Assembly: GCF_001507435.1 (NCBI RefSeq)
Contig: NZ_LMWH01000246.1
Span: 1 to 64,000 of the forward strand
Direction: 5' to 3'
Length of the DNA: 64,000 nucleotides
Origin: Streptomyces sp. NRRL F-5122
GTDB taxonomy: Bacteria > Actinomycetota > Actinomycetes > Streptomycetales > Streptomycetaceae
Shown piece after piece: positions 50,608 to 61,468 of the stretch (positions are counted from its first letter, which is position 1; each line of letters starts with the position of its first letter). A model generated the notes under the pieces. The model had not been told where the DNA came from. It saw only the letters and a program-made list of their open reading frames with translations, and ran no database searches. The position numbers and the translations under genes were made by a program.

Positions 50608-52458
50608 CTGTCGACCGCCATCCTCACCGGTCAGCCGGTCCCCGGATCGTCGCTCGAGGGCGATCTGCGGTCCCTCGGCTTCGACGTGCGGGTCGCCGCC
50701 GACGCCGGTGACGCCGAGACACTCCTCGCCGCCGTACCGGCGAACCAGCGGGTCGCCATCGTCGACGCCCGGTTCGTGGGCCATGTGCACGCGCTGCGCC
50801 TCGGACTCACCGACCCCCGCTTCCCGGCCGCCGCGGTGCCCGGCGCGGTCACGGTCCAGCCCGCCGCCCGCCAGGCGCTGACGCGCGCCCTGGCCCGAGA
50901 GAACTCCGCCGAGATAGGCAGGGTGTCCGCCCGGCCGCCGGCCGCGTCCGAACGGGCGGATGTCCCGACCCTCACCGGCAGCCTCGCGGAGCACATCACC
51001 TCGGCCCTCGGCGCCGACGACGTCACCGTCCACCGCCCCGAGCTCGGCACGCTGGTCGCCGCGGTCCCGGCCGACCCCCAGTCCCGCAACGAGGCCCGCC
51101 AGGCGGTCGCCGCGGTCGACGACGAGGCCGTACGCCTGCGCAGCGCCGTCAAGGCCCGCGACGGCTTCTTCACCACGCACTTCATCAGCCCGTACTCGCG
51201 TTACATCGCCCGCTGGTGCGCCCAGCGCGGTCTCACCCCGAACCAGGTCACGACCGCCTCCCTGCTGACCGCTCTGATCGCGGCGGGCTGCGCGGCCACC
51301 GGGACGCGCGGCGGTTTCGTCGCCGCGGGCGTCCTGCTGATCTTCTCCTTCGTGCTCGACTGCACCGACGGCCAGCTCGCCCGCTACTCGCTGCAGTACT
51401 CCACGCTCGGCGCCTGGCTGGACGCCACCTTCGACCGTGCGAAGGAGTACGCCTACTACGCGGGACTCGCCCTCGGTGCCGCCCGTGGCGGCGACGACGT
51501 CTGGGCGCTCGCCCTCGGGGCGATGATCCTGCAGACGTGCCGGCACGTCGTCGACTTCGCGTTCAACGAGGCCAACCACGACGCGACCGCCAACACGAGC
51601 CCCACCGCGGCCCTCTCCGACCGGCTCGACAGCGTCGGCTGGACCGTCTGGGTGCGCCGGATGATCGTCCTGCCGATCGGTGAACGCTGGGCCATGATCG
51701 CCGTCCTCACGGCCGCGACCACGCCCCGCATCACGTTCTACGCCCTGCTCGTCGGCTGCGCCTTCGCCGCCACCTACACCACGGCGGGCCGTGTGCTGCG
51801 CTCCCTGACGCGCAGGGCCCGGCGCACCGACCGGGCGGCACGGGCGCTCGCCGACCTGGCGGACAACGGTCCGCTCGCCGGGGCCGTGGCCGGGTGGCGC
51901 GACAGGAACCCGCGGATCCGCCTCGGTCCGCCCGTGCTGCTCGCCGCGATCGGGCTCGTGGCCCTCGCGGCGGCCCTCCTCACGGGCAACCACTGGGCCG
52001 CCGTCGCCGGGGCCGTCGTCTACGCCGCGACCTCCGGTCCGGCCCTGTCCAAGCCGCTCAAGGGCGCCCTGGACTGGCTGATCCCGCCCCTCTTCCGCGC
52101 CGCCGAATACATCACCGTGCTGGTGCTGGCCGCCGAATCCAAGGTGAACGGAGCGCTTCCGGCAGCTTTCGGACTGGTGGCGGCGGTCGCCTACCATCAC
52201 TACGACACGGTGTACCGCATCCGCGGCGACGCCGGCGCGCCGCCGCACTGGTTGGTGCGCGCGATCGGGGGGCACGAAGGGCGGACGCTGCTGGTCACGG
52301 TCCTGGCCGCGGTACTCGCCGCGGACGGGTTCACGCTCGCGCTCACGGCTCTCGCCGGCTACGTGGCCCTGCTGGTGCTCGTCGAGAGCATCCGCTTCTG
52401 GGTGTCCGCTCACAAGGGCGGCGCGCCCGCCGTACACGATGAAGGAGAACCCGCATGA
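50608..52458 (+). CDS. CDP-alcohol phosphotransferase, long two-domain form
   Basis: The protein has 616 residues if started at CTG 50608. Residues 1-about 180 form an alpha/beta domain (AILTGQPVPGSSL, GFDVRVAADAGD) that I cannot assign. Then a membrane CDP-alcohol phosphotransferase domain carries the complete motif D251xxD254G-x2-A258R259-x8-G268-x3-D272-x3-D276 (DCTDGQLAR, GAWLDATFD). A further polytopic C-terminal part follows (DUF5941-like from memory). No ATG/GTG/TTG lies between the in-frame stop at 50599 and GTG 50686. CTG 50608 has AGGGAG nine bases upstream and begins a conserved-looking sequence; GTG 50686 is the alternative. The stop overlaps the next ATG (ATGA). Confidence 0.88.
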   Translation: MSTAILTGQPVPGSSLEGDLRSLGFDVRVAADAGDAETLLAAVPANQRVAIVDARFVGHVHALRLGLTDPRFPAAAVPGAVTVQPAARQALTRALARENSAEIGRVSARPPAASERADVPTLTGSLAEHITSALGADDVTVHRPELGTLVAAVPADPQSRNEARQAVAAVDDEAVRLRSAVKARDGFFTTHFISPYSRYIARWCAQRGLTPNQVTTASLLTALIAAGCAATGTRGGFVAAGVLLIFSFVLDCTDGQLARYSLQYSTLGAWLDATFDRAKEYAYYAGLALGAARGGDDVWALALGAMILQTCRHVVDFAFNEANHDATANTSPTAALSDRLDSVGWTVWVRRMIVLPIGERWAMIAVLTAATTPRITFYALLVGCAFAATYTTAGRVLRSLTRRARRTDRAARALADLADNGPLAGAVAGWRDRNPRIRLGPPVLLAAIGLVALAAALLTGNHWAAVAGAVVYAATSGPALSKPLKGALDWLIPPLFRAAEYITVLVLAAESKVNGALPAAFGLVAAVAYHHYDTVYRIRGDAGAPPHWLVRAIGGHEGRTLLVTVLAAVLAADGFTLALTALAGYVALLVLVESIRFWVSAHKGGAPAVHDEGEPA

Positions 52459-53207
52459 TCGGCCTCGTGCTGGCGGCCGGCGCCGGACGGCGTCTGCGCC
52501 CCTACACCGACAGCCTGCCCAAGGCTCTGGTGCCGGTGGGGCCCGCGGGCATAGAGGACGGACCCACGGTCCTCGACCTCACCCTCGCCAACTTCGCCGA
52601 GATCGGTCTGACCGAGGCCGCGATCATCGTCGGGTACCGCAAGGAGGCCGTGTACGAGCGCAAGGAGGCCCTCGAGCGCCGTTACGGCCTCAAGCTCACC
52701 CTCATCGACAACGACCGGGCCGAGGACTGGAACAACGCCTACTCCCTGTGGTGCGGCCGTGACGCCCTCCGGGACGGCGTGATCCTCGCCAACGGCGACA
52801 CCGTGCACCCGGTCTCCGTCGAGCGTACGCTGCTGGCCGCCCGCGGGGACGGCAAGAAGATCATCCTCGCCGTCGACACGGTGAAGAAGCTCGCCGACGA
52901 GGAGATGAAGGTCGTCGTGGACCCCGGCAAGGGCGTCCAGAAGATCACCAAGCTCATGGAGCCCGCCGAGGCGACCGGCGAGTACATCGGTGTCACGCTC
53001 ATCGAGGGCGAGGCCGCCCCGGAGCTGGCCGACGCGCTGAGGACGGTGTGGGAGAGCGATCCCCAGCAGTTCTACGAGCACGGCTACCAGGAGCTCGTGA
53101 ACCGCGGCTTCCGGATCGACGTCGCGCCGATCGGGGACGTGCCGTGGGTCGAGATCGACAACCACGACGACCTGGCCAGGGGACGGGAGATCGCGTGCCG
53201 GTACTGA
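52455..53207 (+). CDS. Sugar/alcohol-phosphate nucleotidyltransferase (CTP-dependent type likely)
   Basis: The 250-residue protein is a nucleotidyltransferase fold: LVLAAGAGRRLRPYTDSLPKALVPV with the nucleotide loop and Lys, LANGD (metal Asp) in the middle, and WVEIDNHDDLARG at the end. The pattern resembles inositol-1-phosphate cytidylyltransferases and LicC-type enzymes more than hexose-1-phosphate ones. It should activate an alcohol phosphate with CTP, giving the CDP-alcohol used by the neighbouring transferases. It starts four bases inside the previous gene and overlaps the next by 13 bases. Confidence 0.87.
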   Translation: MIGLVLAAGAGRRLRPYTDSLPKALVPVGPAGIEDGPTVLDLTLANFAEIGLTEAAIIVGYRKEAVYERKEALERRYGLKLTLIDNDRAEDWNNAYSLWCGRDALRDGVILANGDTVHPVSVERTLLAARGDGKKIILAVDTVKKLADEEMKVVVDPGKGVQKITKLMEPAEATGEYIGVTLIEGEAAPELADALRTVWESDPQQFYEHGYQELVNRGFRIDVAPIGDVPWVEIDNHDDLARGREIACRY

Positions 53208-54256
53208 CGAGGCTCATTCCCTCGCCGGTCGTCGTCGACATCCGCCCCGGTGCCCTGGACGACCTGGCGAACGTGCTCGCGGACGAGCGCATCTCACACT
53301 CGGGCAAGCTGGCCGTGGCGGTGAGCGACGGCTCGGGCGCGCGGCTGCGCGAGAGGCTGGCCCCCAGCCTGCCCGGTGCCACCTGGTACGAGGTCGACGG
53401 CGGCACGCTCGACGACGCCGTCAGGCTGGCCGGCGACATGAAGGCCGGCCACTACGACGCGCTGGTGGGCCTGGGCGGCGGCAAGATCATCGACTGCGCC
53501 AAGTTCGCCGCCGCGCGGGTCGGCCTGCCGCTGGTCGCCGTCCCCACGAACCTCGCACACGACGGACTGTGCTCCCCGGTGGCGACCCTCGACAACGACG
53601 CGGGCCGCGGCTCGTACGGCGTGCCGAACCCGATCGCCGTCGTCATCGACCTGGACGTCATCCGCGAGGCCCCGGCGCGCTTCGTGCGCGCGGGCATCGG
53701 CGACGCCGTGTCCAACATCTCGGCGATCGCGGACTGGGAGCTGGCCAACCGCGTCAACGGCGAGAAGATCGACGGCCTGGCCGCGGCGATGGCCCGGCAG
53801 GCCGGTGAGGCGGTGCTGCGCCATCCGGGCGGCATCGGCGACAACGACTTCCTGCAGGTGCTGGCCGAGGCGCTGGTCCTCAGCGGTATCGCCATGTCCG
53901 TCTCCGGCGACTCCCGGCCGTCCTCCGGCGCGTGCCACGAGATCAACCACGCATTCGACCTGCTGTTCCCCAAGCGCGCGGCCGCGCACGGCGAGCAGTG
54001 CGGGCTGGGCGCCGCCTTCGCGATGTACCTGCGCGGAGCCCACGAGCAATCGGCCTATATGGCCCGGGTGCTCCGCCGGCACGGTCTGCCCGTGCTGCCG
54101 GAGGAGATCGGCTTCACGGTGGACGAGTTCGTCCAGGCCGTGGAGTTCGCCCCGCAGACCAGGCCCGGCCGCTACACGATCCTCGAACACCTCGACCTGA
54201 AGACCGACCAGATCAAGGACACCTACGCCGACTATGTCAAGGCCATCGGTAGCTGA
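53195..54256 (+). CDS. sn-glycerol-1-phosphate dehydrogenase-like iron/zinc alcohol dehydrogenase
   Basis: The 353-residue protein fits the EgsA/AraM group of the iron-containing alcohol dehydrogenase fold. The NAD(P) site is GLGGGKIIDCAKFAA (94-106), the substrate segment is VPTNLAHDGLCSPVA (Asp123), and the metal triad is Asp170 (GIGDAVSN), His248 (ACHEINHAFD) and His265 (AAHGEQCGLG). Such enzymes reduce dihydroxyacetone phosphate to sn-glycerol-1-phosphate, the stereoisomer of archaeal lipids. Dehydroquinate synthase and glycerol dehydrogenase are less likely by motif. GTG 53195 lies inside the previous gene; the 3' end overlaps the next by 23 bases. Confidence 0.87.
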   Translation: MPVLTRLIPSPVVVDIRPGALDDLANVLADERISHSGKLAVAVSDGSGARLRERLAPSLPGATWYEVDGGTLDDAVRLAGDMKAGHYDALVGLGGGKIIDCAKFAAARVGLPLVAVPTNLAHDGLCSPVATLDNDAGRGSYGVPNPIAVVIDLDVIREAPARFVRAGIGDAVSNISAIADWELANRVNGEKIDGLAAAMARQAGEAVLRHPGGIGDNDFLQVLAEALVLSGIAMSVSGDSRPSSGACHEINHAFDLLFPKRAAAHGEQCGLGAAFAMYLRGAHEQSAYMARVLRRHGLPVLPEEIGFTVDEFVQAVEFAPQTRPGRYTILEHLDLKTDQIKDTYADYVKAIGS

Positions 54257-55013
54257 ACTCCGCCCCGTCGTCCACCCGGCTGGGGTGAAGGACCGGCGCA
54301 GCGGTGAGCACTGGGCGGGACGCCTCTACATGCGGGAGATCTCGCTGCGCGTCGACCGCTACCTGGTGAACACCAGGGTCACGCCCAACCAGCTGACGTA
54401 CCTGATGACGGTCTTCGGCGTCCTCGCCGCCCCGGCCCTGCTGGTGCCGGGCGTGGCGGGGGCGGTGCTCGGTGTGGTGATGGTCCAGCTCTACCTGCTC
54501 CTCGACTGCGTCGACGGTGAGATCGCGCGCTGGAAGAAGCAGTTCTCGCTCGGCGGGGTGTACCTGGACCGGGTCGGTGCGTATCTGTGCGACGCCGCCG
54601 TGCTGGTCGGTTTCGGCCTGCGCGCCGCCGATCTGTTCGGCTCCGGCCGGATCGACTGGCTGTGGGCCTTCCTGGGAACGCTCGCCGCGCTCGGCGCCGT
54701 CCTGATCAAGGCCGAGACCGACCTGGTCGGGGTCGCCCGGCACCAGGGCGGTCTGCCGCCGGTCAAGGAGGCGGCGTCCGAGCTCCGCTCGTCCGGCATG
54801 GCGCTGGCCCGCAGGGCGGCCGGGGCGCTGAAGTTCCACCGCCTGGTCCTCGGCATCGAGGCGTCCTTGCTGATCCTGGTCCTGGCCGTGGTGGACGAGG
54901 TCAGGGGCGACCTGTTCTTCTCCCGGCTCGGCGTGGCGGTGCTGGCGGGCATCGCGCTGCTGCAGACGGTCCTGCACCTGGTGTCCATCCTCGCCTCCAG
55001 CAGGCTGAAGTGA
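54234..55013 (+). CDS. CDP-alcohol phosphotransferase, short form, with an altered active-site motif
   Basis: The 259-residue membrane protein has the CDP-alcohol phosphotransferase fold. VTPNQLTYLMTVFGVL starts span 1, and DCVDGEIAR holds Asp91, Asp94, Gly95, Ala98 and Arg99. Gly108 and Asp112 (GVYLD) fit. The fourth conserved Asp of DxxDG-x2-AR-x8-G-x3-D-x3-D is Ala116 instead; another Asp occurs four residues later (Asp120, YLCD). The fourth Asp is thought to be the catalytic base, so the protein may use a shifted base, another reaction, or be non-catalytic. ATG 54234 overlaps the previous gene by 23 bases. The stop overlaps the next GTG. Confidence 0.88.
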   Translation: MSRPSVAELRPVVHPAGVKDRRSGEHWAGRLYMREISLRVDRYLVNTRVTPNQLTYLMTVFGVLAAPALLVPGVAGAVLGVVMVQLYLLLDCVDGEIARWKKQFSLGGVYLDRVGAYLCDAAVLVGFGLRAADLFGSGRIDWLWAFLGTLAALGAVLIKAETDLVGVARHQGGLPPVKEAASELRSSGMALARRAAGALKFHRLVLGIEASLLILVLAVVDEVRGDLFFSRLGVAVLAGIALLQTVLHLVSILASSRLK

Positions 55014-55894
55014 GCGGCGCCATAAGGGTCGGGGCCGTCATCATCACGATGGGCAACCGGCCGGCCGAGCTCCGGGCCCTCCTGGACTCGGTGGCCAAAC
55101 AGGACGGCGACCCCGTCGAGGTCGTCGTGGTCGGCAACGGCTCGCCCGTGCCGGACGTCCCCGACGGCGTCCGCACGGTGGAGCTGCCCGAGAACCTCGG
55201 CATCCCCGGCGGCCGCAACGTGGGCATCGAGGCCTTCGGGCCCGGCGGCAGCGACGTGGACGTGCTGCTCTTCCTGGACGACGACGGCCTGCTCGCCTCG
55301 AACGACACCGCCGAGCTGTGCCGGCTGGCCTTCGCGGCGGACCCCCGGCTCGGGATCGTCAGCTTCCGCATCGCCGACCCCGACACCGGCGAGACCCAGC
55401 GGCGGCACGTACCGCGACTGCGTGCCTCGGACCCGATGCGCTCCTCCCGGGTCACCACCTTCCTGGGCGGGGCCAACGCCGTCCGTACGAAGGTGTTCAC
55501 CGAGGTGGGCGGTCTGCCGGACGCGTTCTTCTACGCCCACGAGGAGACGGACCTGGCCTGGCGGGCCCTGGACGCGGGCTGGATGATCGACTACCGGTCG
55601 GACATGGTGCTGTACCACCCCACGACCGCCCCCTCCCGGCACGCGATCTACCACCGCATGGTCGCCCGCAACCGGGTCTGGCTGGCCCGTCGCAATCTGC
55701 CCGTCGTCCTCATCCCCGCCTATCTGGGCGTCTGGTTGCTCCTGACGCTGCTGCGGCGCCCCTCGCGGGCGGCCCTCCAGGCCTGGTTCGGCGGGTTCAG
55801 GGAGGGCTGGACGACTCCGTGCGGTCCCCGGCGGCGCATCAAGTGGCGCACCGTGTGGCTCCTCACACGACTGGGCCGGCCCCCGGTGATCTGA
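55010..55894 (+). CDS. Family 2 glycosyltransferase
   Basis: The 294-residue protein is a GT-A fold transferase: VGAVIITMGNRPAELRALLDSV at the start, VVVVGNGS, LPENLGIPGGRNVGIEA, the DXD motif in LFLDDDGLLA, FLGGANAVR, and the acceptor segment AFFYAHEETDLAWRALDAGW. A hydrophobic C-terminal segment (LIPAYLGVWLLLTLL) suggests membrane attachment. It resembles rhamnosyl/galactofuranosyl-type transferases; the sugar donor is not shown. GTG 55010 overlaps the previous stop (GTGA). It likely adds a sugar to the product of the CDP-alcohol pathway on the cytosolic face. Confidence 0.9.
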   Translation: MSGAIRVGAVIITMGNRPAELRALLDSVAKQDGDPVEVVVVGNGSPVPDVPDGVRTVELPENLGIPGGRNVGIEAFGPGGSDVDVLLFLDDDGLLASNDTAELCRLAFAADPRLGIVSFRIADPDTGETQRRHVPRLRASDPMRSSRVTTFLGGANAVRTKVFTEVGGLPDAFFYAHEETDLAWRALDAGWMIDYRSDMVLYHPTTAPSRHAIYHRMVARNRVWLARRNLPVVLIPAYLGVWLLLTLLRRPSRAALQAWFGGFREGWTTPCGPRRRIKWRTVWLLTRLGRPPVI

Positions 55895-55993
55895 CAAGCT
55901 CGAGGGAAGGAATGCAGCGGGCGGGTACCTGACCCCGGTTCCCACCCGTGCGCGGCACGGCCGCGCATCCCTCGAACGAGAGTTTGCCGATCT

Positions 55994-56923
55994 GTGAGTG
56001 AGACAACGCGTGACGGCGACGTGGCGGTGGGTGCCCACCAGTCGTCCGACGACGGGCTGACCGCGACCGAGCTGGCCGCCGAGTACGGACTCTCGGTCAG
56101 CGGGGCCCGGCCCGGACTCGTCGAGTACGTCCGCCGGCTGTGGGGGCGGCGTCACTTCATCCTCGCCTTCTCCCAGGCGAAGCTCACCGCCCAGTACAGC
56201 CAGGCCAGGCTGGGGCAGTTGTGGCAGGTCGCCACCCCGCTGCTGAACGCCTGCGTGTACTACCTGATCTTCGGCCTGATCCTGAAGGCCAGCCGCGGCA
56301 TGCCGCACGGCACCTACATCCCGTTCCTGGTGACCGGCGTGTTCGTCTTCACCTTCACCCAGAGCTCGATCATGGCCGGGGTCCGGGCGATCTCCGGCAA
56401 CCTGGGGCTGGTGCGCGCCCTGCACTTCCCCAGAGCCGCGCTGCCCGTCTCGTTCGCGTTGCAGCAGCTCCAGCAGCTGCTGTTCTCGATGATCGTGATG
56501 TTCCTGGTGGTGGTCGGGTTCGGCAGCTATCCGCGGCTGCCCTGGCTGCTGATCGTCCCGGTGCTGGTGCTGCAGTTCCTCTTCAACACCGGCCTCGCGC
56601 TGATCGTGGCCCGGCTGGGTGCCGGGACCCCGGACCTGGCGCAGCTGATGCCGTTCGTCCTGCGTACCTGGATGTACACCTCCGGGGTCATGTTCTCCCT
56701 GCACCACATGCTGGCCGGCCGCCCCGAATGGGTCATCCGGGTGCTCCAGGTGAACCCGGCCGCCGTCTACATGGACCTGATGCGTTTCGCGCTCATCGAG
56801 GACTACGGCTCGGAGAACCTTCCACCGCACGTCTGGGCCGTCGCGCTGTTCTGGGCCGTGGTCGTCTTCGGGGGCGGGTTCGTGTACTTCTGGAAGGCGG
56901 AGGAGAGGTACGGCCGTGGCTGA
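55994..56923 (+). CDS. ABC-2 type transporter permease (TagG/Wzm-like glycoconjugate exporter)
   Basis: The 309-residue protein has six predicted membrane spans in the ABC-2 fold (ILAFSQAKLTAQYSQARLGQLWQVATPLLNACVYYLIFGLILK is the amphipathic entry and span 1). FPRAALPVSFALQQ and a C-terminal pair of spans follow. It belongs to the exporters of teichoic acid and O-antigen type polymers. GTG 55994. Its stop overlaps the ATPase GTG by 8 bases, so they form one transporter with the gene downstream. The substrate is likely the lipid-linked product of the five enzymes upstream. Confidence 0.9.
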   Translation: MSETTRDGDVAVGAHQSSDDGLTATELAAEYGLSVSGARPGLVEYVRRLWGRRHFILAFSQAKLTAQYSQARLGQLWQVATPLLNACVYYLIFGLILKASRGMPHGTYIPFLVTGVFVFTFTQSSIMAGVRAISGNLGLVRALHFPRAALPVSFALQQLQQLLFSMIVMFLVVVGFGSYPRLPWLLIVPVLVLQFLFNTGLALIVARLGAGTPDLAQLMPFVLRTWMYTSGVMFSLHHMLAGRPEWVIRVLQVNPAAVYMDLMRFALIEDYGSENLPPHVWAVALFWAVVVFGGGFVYFWKAEERYGRG

Positions 56924-57695
56924 GCAGAACACCGGGGCCAGGGTGCCCACCGTCATCGCGGACGAGCTGCACATCGTCTACCGCGTCAGCGGCGCCAAGA
57001 CCGGCAGGGGCAGTGCGACCGCCGCGCTGAGCCGGATCCTCAAGCGCGGCGAGGAGCGCGGTGTGCGCAAGGTGCACGCGGTCAAGGGCGTCTCGTTCGT
57101 CGCCTACCGGGGCGAGGCCATCGGGCTGATCGGTTCGAACGGGTCGGGCAAGTCCACCCTGCTGCGGGCCATCGCCGGTCTGCTGCCCGCCGAGCGGGGC
57201 AGGGTCTACACCGACGGCCAGCCCTCGCTGCTCGGCGTGAACGCGGCGCTGATGAACGACCTGACGGGCGAGCGGAACGTCATCCTGGGCGGCCTCGCGA
57301 TGGGGATGACCCGCGAGGAGATCAAGTCCCGCTACCAGGAGATCGTCGACTTCTCCGGGATCAACGAGAAGGGCGACTTCATCACGCTGCCGATGCGCAC
57401 CTACTCCTCCGGCATGGCGGCGCGGCTGCGCTTCGCCATCGCGGCCGCCAAGGACCATGACGTCCTCATGATCGACGAGGCGCTCGCCACCGGTGACCGC
57501 AAGTTCCAGATGCGCTCGGAGGAGCGCATCAGGGAGCTGCGCAAGGAGGCGGGCACGGTGTTTCTGGTCAGTCACAACAACAAGTCCATCCGGGACACCT
57601 GTGACCGCGTCCTGTGGCTCGAACGCGGTGAGCTGAGGCTGGACGGTCCGACCGAGGACGTCCTCAAGGAGTACGAGAAGTTCACCGGCAAGTGA
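56916..57695 (+). CDS. ABC transporter ATPase (TagH/Wzt-like, short form)
   Basis: The 259-residue protein is the ATPase partner of the permease. VHAVKGVSFVAYRGEAIGLIGSNGSGKSTLL holds Walker A (near residue 80). The teichoic-type signature is TYSSGMAARLRFAIA, and Walker B is VLMIDEALATGD. HNNKSIRDTCDRVLWL carries the switch His. It lacks the extra C-terminal carbohydrate-binding domain of long Wzt proteins, so export probably does not need a capped end group. GTG 56916. Last gene of the operon, followed 11 bases later by a strong hairpin. Confidence 0.92.
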   Translation: MAEQNTGARVPTVIADELHIVYRVSGAKTGRGSATAALSRILKRGEERGVRKVHAVKGVSFVAYRGEAIGLIGSNGSGKSTLLRAIAGLLPAERGRVYTDGQPSLLGVNAALMNDLTGERNVILGGLAMGMTREEIKSRYQEIVDFSGINEKGDFITLPMRTYSSGMAARLRFAIAAAKDHDVLMIDEALATGDRKFQMRSEERIRELRKEAGTVFLVSHNNKSIRDTCDRVLWLERGELRLDGPTEDVLKEYEKFTGK

Positions 57696-57740: not shown

Positions 57741-58054
57741 CGTCTGCAAAGGATGTGCCAAGTCTGTTTGCGCTTAGGAATCTTGGTGCCAATCGGTGTG
57801 TTGTTGTGATGTGCAGGACACCCCGACGAACCCCGCTGAGTTGTACAACGTAAGCTGTACGGGTGCTGATTCGCGGCAAGTGGGGCCATAATGCCTGCGC
57901 CCGCACACCTGCTGCGCTGCACGGACGGCCGGGCGGCGTGTCCGAAATAGGATGTATTGGGTCGGCAGTGTAGAACGGGAGATGTGACGGCAATGGCTAC
58001 GGAAAGTCTCCGGCTCCGCGGGGCATGTGCCGTCTCCACGTCGGGCGGCGAGCG
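57741..58054 (+). promoter_or_regulatory. AT-richer promoter region of the hopanoid operon
   Basis: This 314-base stretch has no gene and is less GC-rich than its surroundings. TTGTACAA (57841-57848) is a perfect palindrome, and TGTAC recurs at 57856-57860, so a regulator site is possible. TAGGAT near 57950 could be a -10 box. I could not match a known sigma consensus with confidence. Confidence 0.45.
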
Positions 58055-58957
58055 GTGACCCAAGCCGGGACGGCGCGCGCCGGTGACCCGGTGCGCGGCA
58101 CCCTCGAGAAAGCCGCGGACGAGAACTTCCCCGTGGCCCCCTTCTTCCTGCCCAGGGCCTGGCGTGCCGATCTGATGGCCGTCTACGGTTTCGCCCGGCT
58201 CGTCGACGACATCGGCGACGGCGATCTGGCCCCCGGCGGGGCGGACGCCCGTCTGCTCGGCGTGTCGCCCGAGGAGGCCGGGGACCGTCTCGTTCTGCTG
58301 GACGCCTTCGAGGCCGATCTGCACCGGGTGTTCGACTCGACGCCGCGTCACCCGATCCTGGTCCGCCTCCAGCCCACGGTCCGGCGGGCCGGACTCGATC
58401 CCGAGCCCTTTCTCGGTCTGATCGCCGCCAACCGCCAGGACCAGGTGGTCAGCCGGTACGAGACCTATGACGACCTCCTCGCGTACTGCGAACTTTCCGC
58501 CAACCCGGTCGGCCGGCTCGTCCTCGGCGTCACCGGCACCGCCACCCCCGAGCGCATCCGGCGCTCCGACGCGATCTGCACCGCCCTGCAGATCGTCGAA
58601 CACCTCCAGGACGTCGCCGAGGACCTCGGCCGCGACCGCATCTATCTGCCCGCCGAGGACATGAAGCGGTTCCATGTCCAGGAGGGGGATCTCGCCACGA
58701 CCACAGCGGGCGCATCGGTGCGCGCACTGGTTGCGTACGAAGCAGAACGCGCCCGCGATCTCCTGAATGAAGGCGCCCCCCTTGTGGGTAGCGTCCACGG
58801 CAGGCTGAGGCTGCTGCTCGCAGGCTTCGTGGCGGGAGGGAGGGCGGCGATCCACGCGATCGCCGCCGCCGAATACGACGTACTTCCCGGCCCGCCCAAG
58901 CCCGGCAAGCTCCGGTTGCTGCGCGAGGTGGGCGTGACTCTGCGAGGAGAGGGGTGA
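58055..58957 (+). CDS. hpnC: Hydroxysqualene/presqualene-pathway enzyme HpnC
   Basis: The 300-residue protein is in the squalene/phytoene synthase family: FFLPRAWRADLMAVYGFARLVDDIGDGD with the first aspartate-rich site, and LQIVEHLQDVAEDLGRDRIYLP with the second. HpnC works with HpnD and HpnE to make squalene from farnesyl diphosphate via presqualene diphosphate and hydroxysqualene. GTG 58055 is chosen (GGCGGCGAG upstream); ATG 58025 would add ten Arg-rich residues. Its stop overlaps the GTG of hpnD (GTGA). First gene of the hopanoid operon. Confidence 0.88.
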   Translation: MTQAGTARAGDPVRGTLEKAADENFPVAPFFLPRAWRADLMAVYGFARLVDDIGDGDLAPGGADARLLGVSPEEAGDRLVLLDAFEADLHRVFDSTPRHPILVRLQPTVRRAGLDPEPFLGLIAANRQDQVVSRYETYDDLLAYCELSANPVGRLVLGVTGTATPERIRRSDAICTALQIVEHLQDVAEDLGRDRIYLPAEDMKRFHVQEGDLATTTAGASVRALVAYEAERARDLLNEGAPLVGSVHGRLRLLLAGFVAGGRAAIHAIAAAEYDVLPGPPKPGKLRLLREVGVTLRGEG

Positions 58958-59904
58958 TCCGGACCGTGGAGTCGGAACAGCATGTGTCCCCACCGGTACT
59001 TGCCGCCTACAGCTACTGCGAGACCGTGACCGGTCAGCAGGCCCGTAACTTCGCCTACGGCATCAGGCTCCTGCCGACGGCCAAGCGTCGGGCGATGTCC
59101 GCGCTCTACGCGTTCTCGCGGCGGGTCGACGACATCGGGGACGGCGAGCTGCCGACGGACGTCAAGGCCGAGCGGCTGGAGGAGACCAGGGCGCTGCTGG
59201 GACGGATCCGTGCCGACGAGGTGGCCGAGGACGACACCGATCCGGTCGGGGTCGCCCTGACGCACGCCGCCCGGCAGTTCCCGATCCCGCTCGGCGGTCT
59301 CGACGAGCTCATCGACGGCGTCCTCAAGGACGTGCGCGGCGAGACCTACGAGACCTGGGACGACCTGAAGGTCTACTGCCGTTGTGTGGCCGGGGCCATC
59401 GGACGGCTCTCCCTGGGTGTGTTCGGCACCGAGCCGGGGGCGCGCGGCGCTGAGCGCGCGCCGGAATACGCCGACACGCTCGGGCTCGCGCTGCAACTCA
59501 CCAACATCCTCCGGGACGTCCGCGAGGACGCGGAGGGCGGGCGGGTGTATCTGCCGGCCGACGACCTGGCCAAGTTCGGCTGCTCAGCCGGATTCCACGG
59601 GCCGACCCCGCCCGAGGGGTCCGATTTCGCGGGCCTCGTGCACTTCGAGGTACGCCGGGCCCGTGCCCTGTTCGCCGAGGGCTACCGGCTGCTGCCGATG
59701 CTGGACCGGCGCAGCGGAGCCTGCGTCGCCGCCATGGCAGGCATCTACCGCCGGCTTCTGGACCGTATCGAGCGCGAGCCCGAGGCCGTGCTGCGCGGGC
59801 GGGTCTCGCTGCCCGGCCGTGAGAAGGCGTATGTCGCCGTGCGCGGCCTGTCGGGTCTTGACGCGAGGAACGTTTCCCGGCGGACCGTCAGGAGGCGCGC
59901 CTGA
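58954..59904 (+). CDS. hpnD: Presqualene diphosphate synthase HpnD
   Basis: The 316-residue protein is the second squalene/phytoene synthase-type enzyme of the operon: YGIRLLPTAKRRAMSALYAFSRRVDDIGDGEL for the first metal site and LQLTNILRDVREDAEGGRVYLP for the second, which fits a head-to-head prenyl synthase. HpnD joins two farnesyl diphosphates into presqualene diphosphate. GTG 58954 overlaps the hpnC stop. The stop codon overlaps the ATG of a small gene (TGATG). Confidence 0.92.
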   Translation: MIRTVESEQHVSPPVLAAYSYCETVTGQQARNFAYGIRLLPTAKRRAMSALYAFSRRVDDIGDGELPTDVKAERLEETRALLGRIRADEVAEDDTDPVGVALTHAARQFPIPLGGLDELIDGVLKDVRGETYETWDDLKVYCRCVAGAIGRLSLGVFGTEPGARGAERAPEYADTLGLALQLTNILRDVREDAEGGRVYLPADDLAKFGCSAGFHGPTPPEGSDFAGLVHFEVRRARALFAEGYRLLPMLDRRSGACVAAMAGIYRRLLDRIEREPEAVLRGRVSLPGREKAYVAVRGLSGLDARNVSRRTVRRRA

Positions 59905-60044
59905 TGGACAGTCCGCTCCAGGATGATGCCGGTGCCGAAAAACGGCAGGCAACCCTCCGGCGCGGCGCGGCGTCCCTGACTGCGACGGCCTGCCGTGCAT
60001 GGTTCAAGCACCACGGCGGACCGGCAGGGGAGGATGCACGATGA
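59904..60044 (+). CDS. 46-residue small protein coupled between hpnD and hpnE (DUF6380-like)
   Basis: ATG 59904 overlaps the hpnD stop (TGATG) and TGA 60042-60044 overlaps the hpnE start (ATGA). The product starts MDSPLQDDAGAEKRQATLRR and ends with RAWFKHHGGPAGEDAR. The pattern, including GAASLTATACRA in the middle, matches my memory of short Streptomyces proteins called DUF6380. Function is unknown. It has no membrane span. Double coupling suggests it is truly translated, or that its translation carries ribosomes to hpnE. Confidence 0.7.
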   Translation: MDSPLQDDAGAEKRQATLRRGAASLTATACRAWFKHHGGPAGEDAR

Positions 60045-61468
60045 GCGACGGCACACTGCCGGAGGGCCCGGTTCAGGACGCCTCCGGGCGCCCCGGAACC
60101 TCCGCCGTGGTGGTCGGAGGAGGACTCGCCGGGATCACTGCCGCGCTTGCGCTCGCCGACGCGGGCGTGCAGGTCACGCTGCTGGAGGGACGCCCCCGCC
60201 TCGGCGGCCTCGCCTTCTCCTTCGAGCGCGGGAACCTCACCGTCGACAACGGCCAGCACGTCTATCTGCGCTGCTGCACCGCATACCGGTGGTTCCTCGA
60301 CCGTATCGACGCCGCCGCGCTCGCCCCGCTGCAGGATCGTCTCGACGTGCCCGTTCTCGACGCGGACGCCGCACCGGGACGACGGCTGGGCAGACTCCGG
60401 CGCGACGCGCTGCCCGTGCCCCTGCACCTCGGGCGCAGCCTGGCCATCTACCCGCACCTCTCCCTCGCGGAGCGCGCCAGAGTAGGGCGCGCCGCATTGG
60501 CGCTCCGCACACTGGACCTCGCGGATCCCGCGCTCGACGCGCAGGACTTCGGCAGCTGGCTGGCCGCGCACGGTCAGTCGGCGCGTGCCATCGAGGCACT
60601 GTGGGACCTGGTCGGGGTCGCCACCCTCAACGCGGTGGCCGAAGACGCCTCGCTCGGGCTCGCCGCGATGGTGTTCAAGACGGGTCTGCTGTCCGACCCG
60701 GGTGCGGCCGACATCGGATGGGCTCGCGTCCCGCTGGGCGAACTGCACGACCGGCTGGCCCGCAAGGCGCTCGACTCCGCGGGCGTGCGTACCGAGGTCC
60801 GTACACGCGTCACCTCCATCTCCCATGACGAAAACGGGAACTGGAGCGTTCAGGTTCCCGGCGAACGCATCGACACCGACGCGGTCGTCCTCGCCGTCCC
60901 CCAGCGCGAGGCGCACGGCCTGCTGCCGGCCGGAGCCCTCGACGCCCCCGAACGGCTGCTCGAGATCGGCACGGCACCGATCCTCAACATCCATGTCGTC
61001 TACGGCCGCAAGGTCCTCGGACGGCCGTTCTTCGCCGCTCTGGGCTCCCCGGTCCAGTGGGTCTTCGACCGCACCGAGGCCTCGGGACTGCGCGAGGGCC
61101 AGTACCTGGCACTGTCGCAGTCGGCGGCACAGGACGAGATCGACGAACCGGTCGCCGTGCTGCGCGAGCGTTATCTGCCCGAGCTGGAGCGGTTGTTGCC
61201 GGGTGCCCGCGACGCCGAGGTCAAGGACTTCTTCGTTACCCGGGAGCGCACGGCGACGTTCGCCCCCACCCCGGGCGTCGGGCGGTTGCGGCCCGGCGCC
61301 CGCACCAAGGCCCCCGGCCTCTACCTGGCCGGAGCGTGGACCGCCACCGGGTGGCCCGCGACCATGGAAAGTGCGGTCCGCAGCGGAGTCAGCGCGGCGG
61401 GTGCCGCTCTGGGCGCCCTGGGCCGGTCCGGCGCGCACCTGTCCGGCCTCTTCGAGGAGGCGGCGTGA
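60041..61468 (+). CDS. hpnE: Hydroxysqualene dehydroxylase HpnE (FAD-dependent)
   Basis: The 475-residue protein is a phytoene-desaturase-type FAD oxidoreductase: AVVVGGGLAGITAALALADAG at the start, GGLAFSF and a C-terminal FAD segment LYLAGAWTATGWPATMESAVRSG. HpnE reduces hydroxysqualene to squalene in this pathway. ATG 60041 has GGGGAGG seven bases upstream; ATG 59999 would be inside the small upstream gene. It overlaps that small gene by four bases. Confidence 0.9.
   Translation: MSDGTLPEGPVQDASGRPGTSAVVVGGGLAGITAALALADAGVQVTLLEGRPRLGGLAFSFERGNLTVDNGQHVYLRCCTAYRWFLDRIDAAALAPLQDRLDVPVLDADAAPGRRLGRLRRDALPVPLHLGRSLAIYPHLSLAERARVGRAALALRTLDLADPALDAQDFGSWLAAHGQSARAIEALWDLVGVATLNAVAEDASLGLAAMVFKTGLLSDPGAADIGWARVPLGELHDRLARKALDSAGVRTEVRTRVTSISHDENGNWSVQVPGERIDTDAVVLAVPQREAHGLLPAGALDAPERLLEIGTAPILNIHVVYGRKVLGRPFFAALGSPVQWVFDRTEASGLREGQYLALSQSAAQDEIDEPVAVLRERYLPELERLLPGARDAEVKDFFVTRERTATFAPTPGVGRLRPGARTKAPGLYLAGAWTATGWPATMESAVRSGVSAAGAALGALGRSGAHLSGLFEEAA

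Follow-up and report, generated by a model that had tools for sequence, protein, structure and literature searches.

A conserved actinomycete operon as a candidate for a teichoic-acid-like pathway from sn-glycerol-1-phosphate

What might a Streptomyces build when a relative of the archaeal glycerol-1-phosphate (G1P) dehydrogenase is encoded together with a cytidylyltransferase-like protein, two CDP-alcohol phosphotransferases, a glycosyltransferase and an exporter? This question is raised by positions 50608 to 57695 of a 64,000-nucleotide stretch of Streptomyces sp. NRRL F-5122 (contig NZ_LMWH01000246.1; the window), where seven collinear genes, termed P1 to P7, lie on the + strand. On balance, we favour the reading that the operon encodes a variant teichoic- or lipoteichoic-acid-like pathway starting from the archaeal enantiomer of glycerol phosphate. 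The successive junctions of the genes measure -4, -13, -23, -4, +99 and -8 bases, with an overlap in five of the six. An earlier note on this DNA had described seven consecutive genes with five overlapping junctions, encoding two CDP-alcohol phosphotransferases, a cytidylyltransferase-like protein, a G1P dehydrogenase-like enzyme with an intact triad, a family 2 glycosyltransferase and a TagGH-like exporter. The coordinates and the Pfam matches given below bear out each of these assignments.

The P3 gene (53195-54256) encodes the dehydrogenase, which was matched by the Pfam families Fe-ADH_2 (97.9 bits, cut-off 28) and Fe-ADH. Among the NCBIfam models, the NAD(P)-dependent glycerol-1-phosphate dehydrogenase scored highest with 248 bits, whereas the next model, glycerol dehydrogenase, reached 88 bits. 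The closest solved structures were the G1P dehydrogenases 4rgq and 4rfl. The metal triad consists of Asp170, His248 and His265, and the numbering of the earlier note is correct when counted from the GTG codon at 53195. Across 42 aligned rows, with three genes entered twice, the first position was occupied by Asp in 40 and Glu in 2 rows and the two others by His in all 42. The triad and its flanking motifs are shared with the archaeal G1P dehydrogenase. Judged from its family and the triad, P3 would reduce dihydroxyacetone phosphate (DHAP) to sn-glycerol-1-phosphate.

The preceding gene, P2 (52455-53207), encodes a LicC/IPCT-like nucleotidyltransferase (Pfam NTP_transferase, 38.3 bits, cut-off 21.2). 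Its closest solved structure was the CTP:phosphocholine cytidylyltransferase LicC (1jyk), followed by 4jd0 and, more weakly, by 6pd1, whose substrate we take to be a phosphonate. Over 39 aligned rows the residues W92-N93-N94, Y96-S97, N113-G114-D115-T116, E149-E150-M151-K152 and G175-E176-Y177-I178-G179 were at least 97% conserved. The TagD model TIGR01518 was not among the 18 NCBIfam families that matched P2 at E<=0.01. The pairing with P3, the likeness to LicC and IPCT and the CDP-using partners suggest that P2 is a CTP:glycerol-1-phosphate cytidylyltransferase that would convert G1P and CTP to CDP-1-glycerol. A distant P2 (31% identity) in genome G005 directly adjoins a CDP-alcohol phosphotransferase (L134:6317-7700), and no P3 match was found within this 15-kb locus; other alcohols may therefore also serve P2-type enzymes.

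The earlier note had proposed a search for conserved gene order in actinomycetes, and this was carried out at two levels. A search of 246 class genomes detected P3 (E<=1e-40) in 60, including 22 from the genus of the window; no member of this genus was among the no-match rows listed. From these 60 genomes and from DUF5941 matches outside the genus, 40 loci of 37 genomes were selected and fetched. For a part of the loci discussed here genes were called with a codon-bias script, which missed genes in L059, L133 and L134. P3 was present in 38 of the 40 loci and P2 stood directly beside it in 36 of the 38; L065 and a second copy, L080, were the exceptions. All 11 primary Streptomyces loci fetched kept the order P1 to P7 with hpnC downstream. 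The second survey covered 80 loci of named genomes, which were fetched by P2 and kept out of 569 confirmed relatives; they included Microbispora, Nonomuraea, Streptosporangium, Nocardiopsis, Nocardioides, Micromonospora, Glycomyces, Kitasatospora, Streptacidiphilus and Streptomyces. P2 was followed by P3 in all 80, and conservation of this extent goes beyond a chance arrangement. Near the pair we counted P4 in 70 loci, P5 in 70, P1 in 57, P7 in 36 and P6 in 32, where P6 and P1 are perhaps undercounted and contig ends truncate a number of loci (labels from tblastn at 1e-8; GT2c9 and FGGAP matches below 80 bits dropped). Since P4 and P5 are commoner near P2-P3 than P1, P6 and P7, the core of the block is P2-P3-P4-P5, the exporter is frequent and P1 is optional. 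In G045, which belongs to a distant part of the phylum, the set runs ABC-ABC-P2-P3-P4-P5, without P1.

The two membrane enzymes both matched Pfam CDP-OH_P_transf. P1 (50608-52458) is composed of an N-terminal domain, the CDP-alcohol phosphotransferase and a DUF5941 part, and carries the complete motif D-xx-DG-xx-AR-x8-G-xxx-D-xxx-D in the window and in all 22 relatives shown. The motif ended in Asp in each of the 51 named loci where a P1-type motif was found, four of which hold a separate Micromonospora-type transferase. P4 (54234-55013) keeps all elements of the motif except the fourth Asp, the residue that we take to be the proposed catalytic base. At this position the window has Ala, 28 relatives have His (18) or Ala (10), and the 70 named loci holding P4 have His in 54, Ala in 16 and Asp in none. 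Because P4 is without the fourth catalytic Asp, P1 and P4 are not equivalent. The Ala variant was found in Streptomyces and Nonomuraea, and P1 accompanied it in 16 of 16 loci, compared with 41 of 54 loci of the His type (p 0.03, uncorrected). P4 is nevertheless predicted to have the CDP-alcohol phosphotransferase fold: the model (pLDDT 83.8) was most similar to the structures of AF2299 and of IPCT-DIPPS from Archaeoglobus fulgidus. One may speculate that the base is dispensable where the acceptor itself brings a phosphate, as polyprenyl phosphate would.

The last three genes encode a family 2 glycosyltransferase, P5 (55010-55894; Pfam Glycos_transf_2), in which the DDD at residues 90-92 is conserved across 26 sequences, an ABC-2 type permease resembling TagG and Wzm, P6 (55994-56923; ABC2_membrane), and a TagH-like ABC ATPase, P7 (56916-57695; ABC_tran).

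The neighbours of the block in the 80 named loci, assigned through the Pfam families of reference proteins, were LytR-CpsA-Psr (LCP) ligases in 47, TagF-type polymerases in 20 and glycerophosphodiester phosphodiesterases in 14. As P2-P3 occurs among these genes in relatives, the pair is associated with teichoic-acid-type polymers. No LCP ligase was found among the annotated genes adjoining the operon of the window. The TagF family PF04464 matched none of the seven operon proteins, in line with the earlier note that no TagB/TagF polymerase is present, although four matches exist elsewhere in this genome, all outside the operon.

The supply of CDP-glycerol was then compared between genomes. In a selection of 32 carrier genomes, chosen for having P3 or DUF5941, TagF (PF04464) was found in 30 (absent from G376 and G086), whereas TagD (TIGR01518) exceeded the cut-off in none, making P2-P3 a candidate source of CDP-glycerol. 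A weaker TagD match (1e-3) was seen in 23 of the 32, the best with 65.8 bits; G023, G193 and G433 had no TagD match despite 3, 3 and 5 TagF matches, respectively. Among 296 genomes of the phylum, TagF (1e-15) was present in 25, P2 in 16 (13 of these with at least 245 bits) and TagD with at least 100 bits in 13. The strong P2 and TagD of at least 100 bits co-occurred in none of the 296. The 25 TagF genomes included 12 with strong P2 and 6 with TagD. Counted by genus, TagF occurred in 4 of 5 genera with strong P2 and in 12 of the remaining 193 (Fisher p 1.4e-4). Inclusion of weak P2 changed these counts to 4 of 8 and 12 of 190 (p 0.0017); both tests ignore kinship.

In the proposed pathway, P3 would supply sn-glycerol-1-phosphate from DHAP and P2 would activate it with CTP. 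P4, and P1 where it is present, would move glycerol-1-phosphate onto a membrane acceptor, as their fold suggests, most likely a lipid or a polyprenyl-linked intermediate. P5 would add a sugar and P6/P7 would export the product. Such a pathway would work in a teichoic- or lipoteichoic-like manner without TagD or an operon-borne TagF, and at other loci P2-P3 probably also supplies TagF-type polymerases. We keep the operon apart from the TagD/TagF system because the features of that system that were tested were not found in it. The earlier note had arrived at the same sequence from DHAP through G1P and CDP-glycerol to transfer, sugar addition and export; gene order and family likeness favour it and none of the results obtained contradicts it, but it has to be amended in that the two membrane enzymes differ and that in relatives the P2-P3 pair goes with teichoic-acid-type genes. 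A wider version, to which we give somewhat less than an even chance, is that Streptomyces and many other actinomycetes make lipoteichoic or wall teichoic polymers from CDP-1-glycerol, with P2-P3 replacing TagD and with enzymes of the CDP-alcohol phosphotransferase fold priming or polymerising like TagB or LtaS, one of these enzymes having its catalytic chemistry altered by the exchange of Asp for His or Ala.

Several observations weigh against these proposals. P3 stays below the curated equivalog cut-off of the G1P dehydrogenase model (248 against 413 bits) and P7 below that of TagH, its best NCBIfam model (180 against 320 bits). The literature searched here and below, which consisted of open-licence texts, gave no assay of any enzyme of the P3 clade. 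Strong P2 and TagD of at least 100 bits are both missing from seven of the 25 genomes with TagF, and the association by genus takes no account of kinship. Five of the 9 Streptomyces among the 32 carrier genomes, including that of the window, contain a TagD relative (63-66 bits) that might itself make CDP-glycerol. G086 and G045 hold P2-P3-P4-P5 and an exporter with no TagF at 1e-15, so the block is independent of TagF and TagF is not its universal partner. Moreover, the available text of PMC5974469 describes other donors for enzymes of the TagF family, with transfer of hexose phosphate, so that TagF without TagD is no proof of a need for P2. Excerpts of PMC3196553 mention a strain, S. verticillus, without a detectable macroamphiphile, and the enantiomer of the Streptomyces lipoteichoic acid is not stated in the portions of the literature found.

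Alternatively, P3 might act on another ketose phosphate and P2 make another CDP-polyol, leading to an exported glycan with a different polyol phosphate. The low score of P3 relative to the equivalog cut-off would fit this, as would the sequence relatives of P2, which handle choline phosphate, inositol phosphate and presumably phosphonate (6pd1), and IPCT-DIPPS is an inositol enzyme. We nonetheless consider it rather unlikely: the G1P dehydrogenase model leads the next by 248 to 88 bits, the triad and flanking motifs of P3 are those of the archaeal enzyme, and the TagF and glycerophosphodiesterase neighbours in relatives indicate glycerol phosphate. These LCP-rich neighbourhoods (47 of 80 named loci), together with an exporter that looks like polymer exporters, also speak against a small glycerol-phospho-glycolipid, for which P4 would make a phosphatidylglycerol-like lipid or glycerophosphoglycolipid, P5 would glycosylate it and the ABC pair would flip it; this we regard as slightly less likely still.

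Two further readings concern an ether lipid and a soluble solute. P3 could provide G1P for prenylation to an archaeal-type ether lipid. Isoprenoid genes do adjoin the operon and, against our proposal, the accessible part of PMC6431249 places Streptomyces among the genera in which some species have G1PDH, GGGPS and DGGGPS orthologues, and proposes that these species may make archaeal-like lipids. A search of the window's genome, the only one searched, gave no match to PF01884 (PcrB/GGGPS) at E<=0.001, whereas the control was positive in 7 of 14 genomes. The suggestion of PMC6431249 is thus unsupported for this genome. As P3 is regularly paired with a putative cytidylyltransferase and not with a prenyltransferase, an ether lipid seems highly improbable. 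Hardly more probable is a soluble glycerol phosphodiester solute as in Archaeoglobus. The closest solved CDP-alcohol enzymes are the archaeal AF2299 and IPCT-DIPPS, and a lysate of A. fulgidus makes CDP-glycerol with a preference for Gro1P (earlier work cited in the part of PMC8262930 available), but a glycosyltransferase and an exporter are part of the block.

A teichoic-acid-like pathway from G1P would resemble the wall teichoic acid pathway of Firmicutes in its proposed CDP-glycerol donor, its TagGH-like exporter and the LCP, TagF and glycerophosphodiesterase genes that in many relatives adjoin the block. It would differ in that the operon lacks TagD and TagF and has instead a putative cytidylyltransferase of the LicC/IPCT type, a predicted G1P dehydrogenase and CDP-alcohol phosphotransferases as transferases, with the opposite enantiomer proposed. 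With the A. fulgidus IPCT-DIPPS/AF2299 system, which has the folds nearest to P4, the operon would share the chemistry of a cytidylyltransferase and a CDP-alcohol phosphotransferase, whereas in IPCT-DIPPS the two activities are fused and the substrate is inositol. We know of no dehydrogenase, glycosyltransferase or exporter belonging to that system. As predicted for P3, AraM of Bacillus subtilis is a bacterial G1P dehydrogenase, but its G1P is prenylated with PcrB (excerpts of PMC6431249 and PMC5059525), whereas P3 is partnered by a putative cytidylyltransferase and the window's genome has no PcrB match. Bacterial G1P dehydrogenases, including those of Streptomyces, are discussed in the same excerpts on the lipid divide. 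The sections available of PMC8262930 hold that the great majority of bacteria are thought to lack free Gro1P and that the Gro1P in the polymers covered there apparently stems from donors other than CDP-1-Gro.

For Streptomyces, the most attractive product candidate is polyglycerolphosphate lipoteichoic acid. According to the accessible parts of PMC3196553, this polymer was reported for S. hygroscopicus and, preliminarily, for S. coelicolor, actinobacteria have no clear LtaS orthologue and their lipoteichoic acid synthesis is unresolved. As an envelope polymer of polyglycerolphosphate it would suit the operon, to which we tentatively assign it. LtaS draws on phosphatidylglycerol (available text of PMC8262930), unlike the pathway proposed here. 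Thermobifida fusca is cited as lipoteichoic-acid-positive in the excerpts of PMC3196553; it shares its family with Nocardiopsis, from whose loci the block is known. The block itself has been listed in 2026 as a Streptomyces synteny of araM, tagG, tagH, crtB, CDP-alcohol phosphatidyltransferase, GT2 and sugar phosphate nucleotidyltransferase (PMC13118837, seen in part). By its gene list this region is our operon, and the parts available state no pathway or enantiomer. It was the only listing of the block found in the open-licence literature searched, where no paper that gives the pathway was found. The statement of the earlier note that such a pathway could not be named in Streptomyces holds to this extent, but the operon is widespread in actinomycetes. 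The S. coelicolor counterparts of the operon are presumably SCO6752-6757, of which SCO6753 is mentioned in one paper found.

If the proposal is true, it describes an unrecognised way to build teichoic-acid-like surface molecules and would explain why many actinomycetes have a G1P dehydrogenase, namely for the envelope rather than for ether lipids. It would also account for the supply of CDP-glycerol in TagF-bearing actinomycetes without TagD above the cut-off and for polyglycerolphosphate lipoteichoic acid in actinomycetes that lack a clear LtaS. Antibiotic-producing bacteria would then carry the mirror image of the usual glycerol phosphate in their envelope.

Some observations concern the surroundings of these genes. 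The hopanoid genes hpnC, hpnD and hpnE lie next to the operon (58025-61468, + strand; hpnC above the NCBIfam cut-off). They are probably context outside the pathway; hpn genes were found in 18 of the 80 named loci, all from Streptomyces, Kitasatospora or Wenjunlia. The TagD-like protein of the window's genome (contig C265, L128:6995-8132; 151 amino acids, 65 bits) adjoins a further CDP-alcohol phosphotransferase and stands among polysaccharide-like genes. In Streptomyces G403 (loci among L078, L080, L125 and L126) an extra P3 was located 5.7 kb from a TagF gene, with a galU-like gene also present. G433 has an extra P2-P3 pair and galE at the same interval and its TagF genes on another contig. 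We take this interval, recognised by eye, to be rne-rplU-rpmA-obg-proB, which by the same inspection seems to hold variable teichoic-type genes in Streptomyces. GlfT2-like galactofuranosyltransferases were near the block in 4 of the 80 named loci, all Nocardioides. In the Nocardioides loci L060, L137, L158, L159 and L176, of which L060 and L137 are apparently one locus, P2-P3 adjoins such a gene, hinting at a galactofuranan bearing glycerol-phosphate. The scanned Nocardioides locus also encodes, beside P2-P3, an FG-GAP/amidase protein and an exporter.

The DUF5941 part of P1 (52000-52458) was found in 13 of the 296 phylum genomes and is named in no paper found. It accompanied a CDP-alcohol phosphotransferase in the loci examined, either fused or as an adjoining frame, and the two parts of P1 are separate reading frames in several relatives. 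At its 5' end P1 has no ATG, GTG or TTG and opens with CTG at 50608, with GGAG ahead. The aligned start in 11 Streptomyces relatives was CTG in 8 and TTG in 3, with a conserved GGAGTGAGT immediately 5' of it, and with one or the other codon in all 11 a rare start codon has seemingly been retained.

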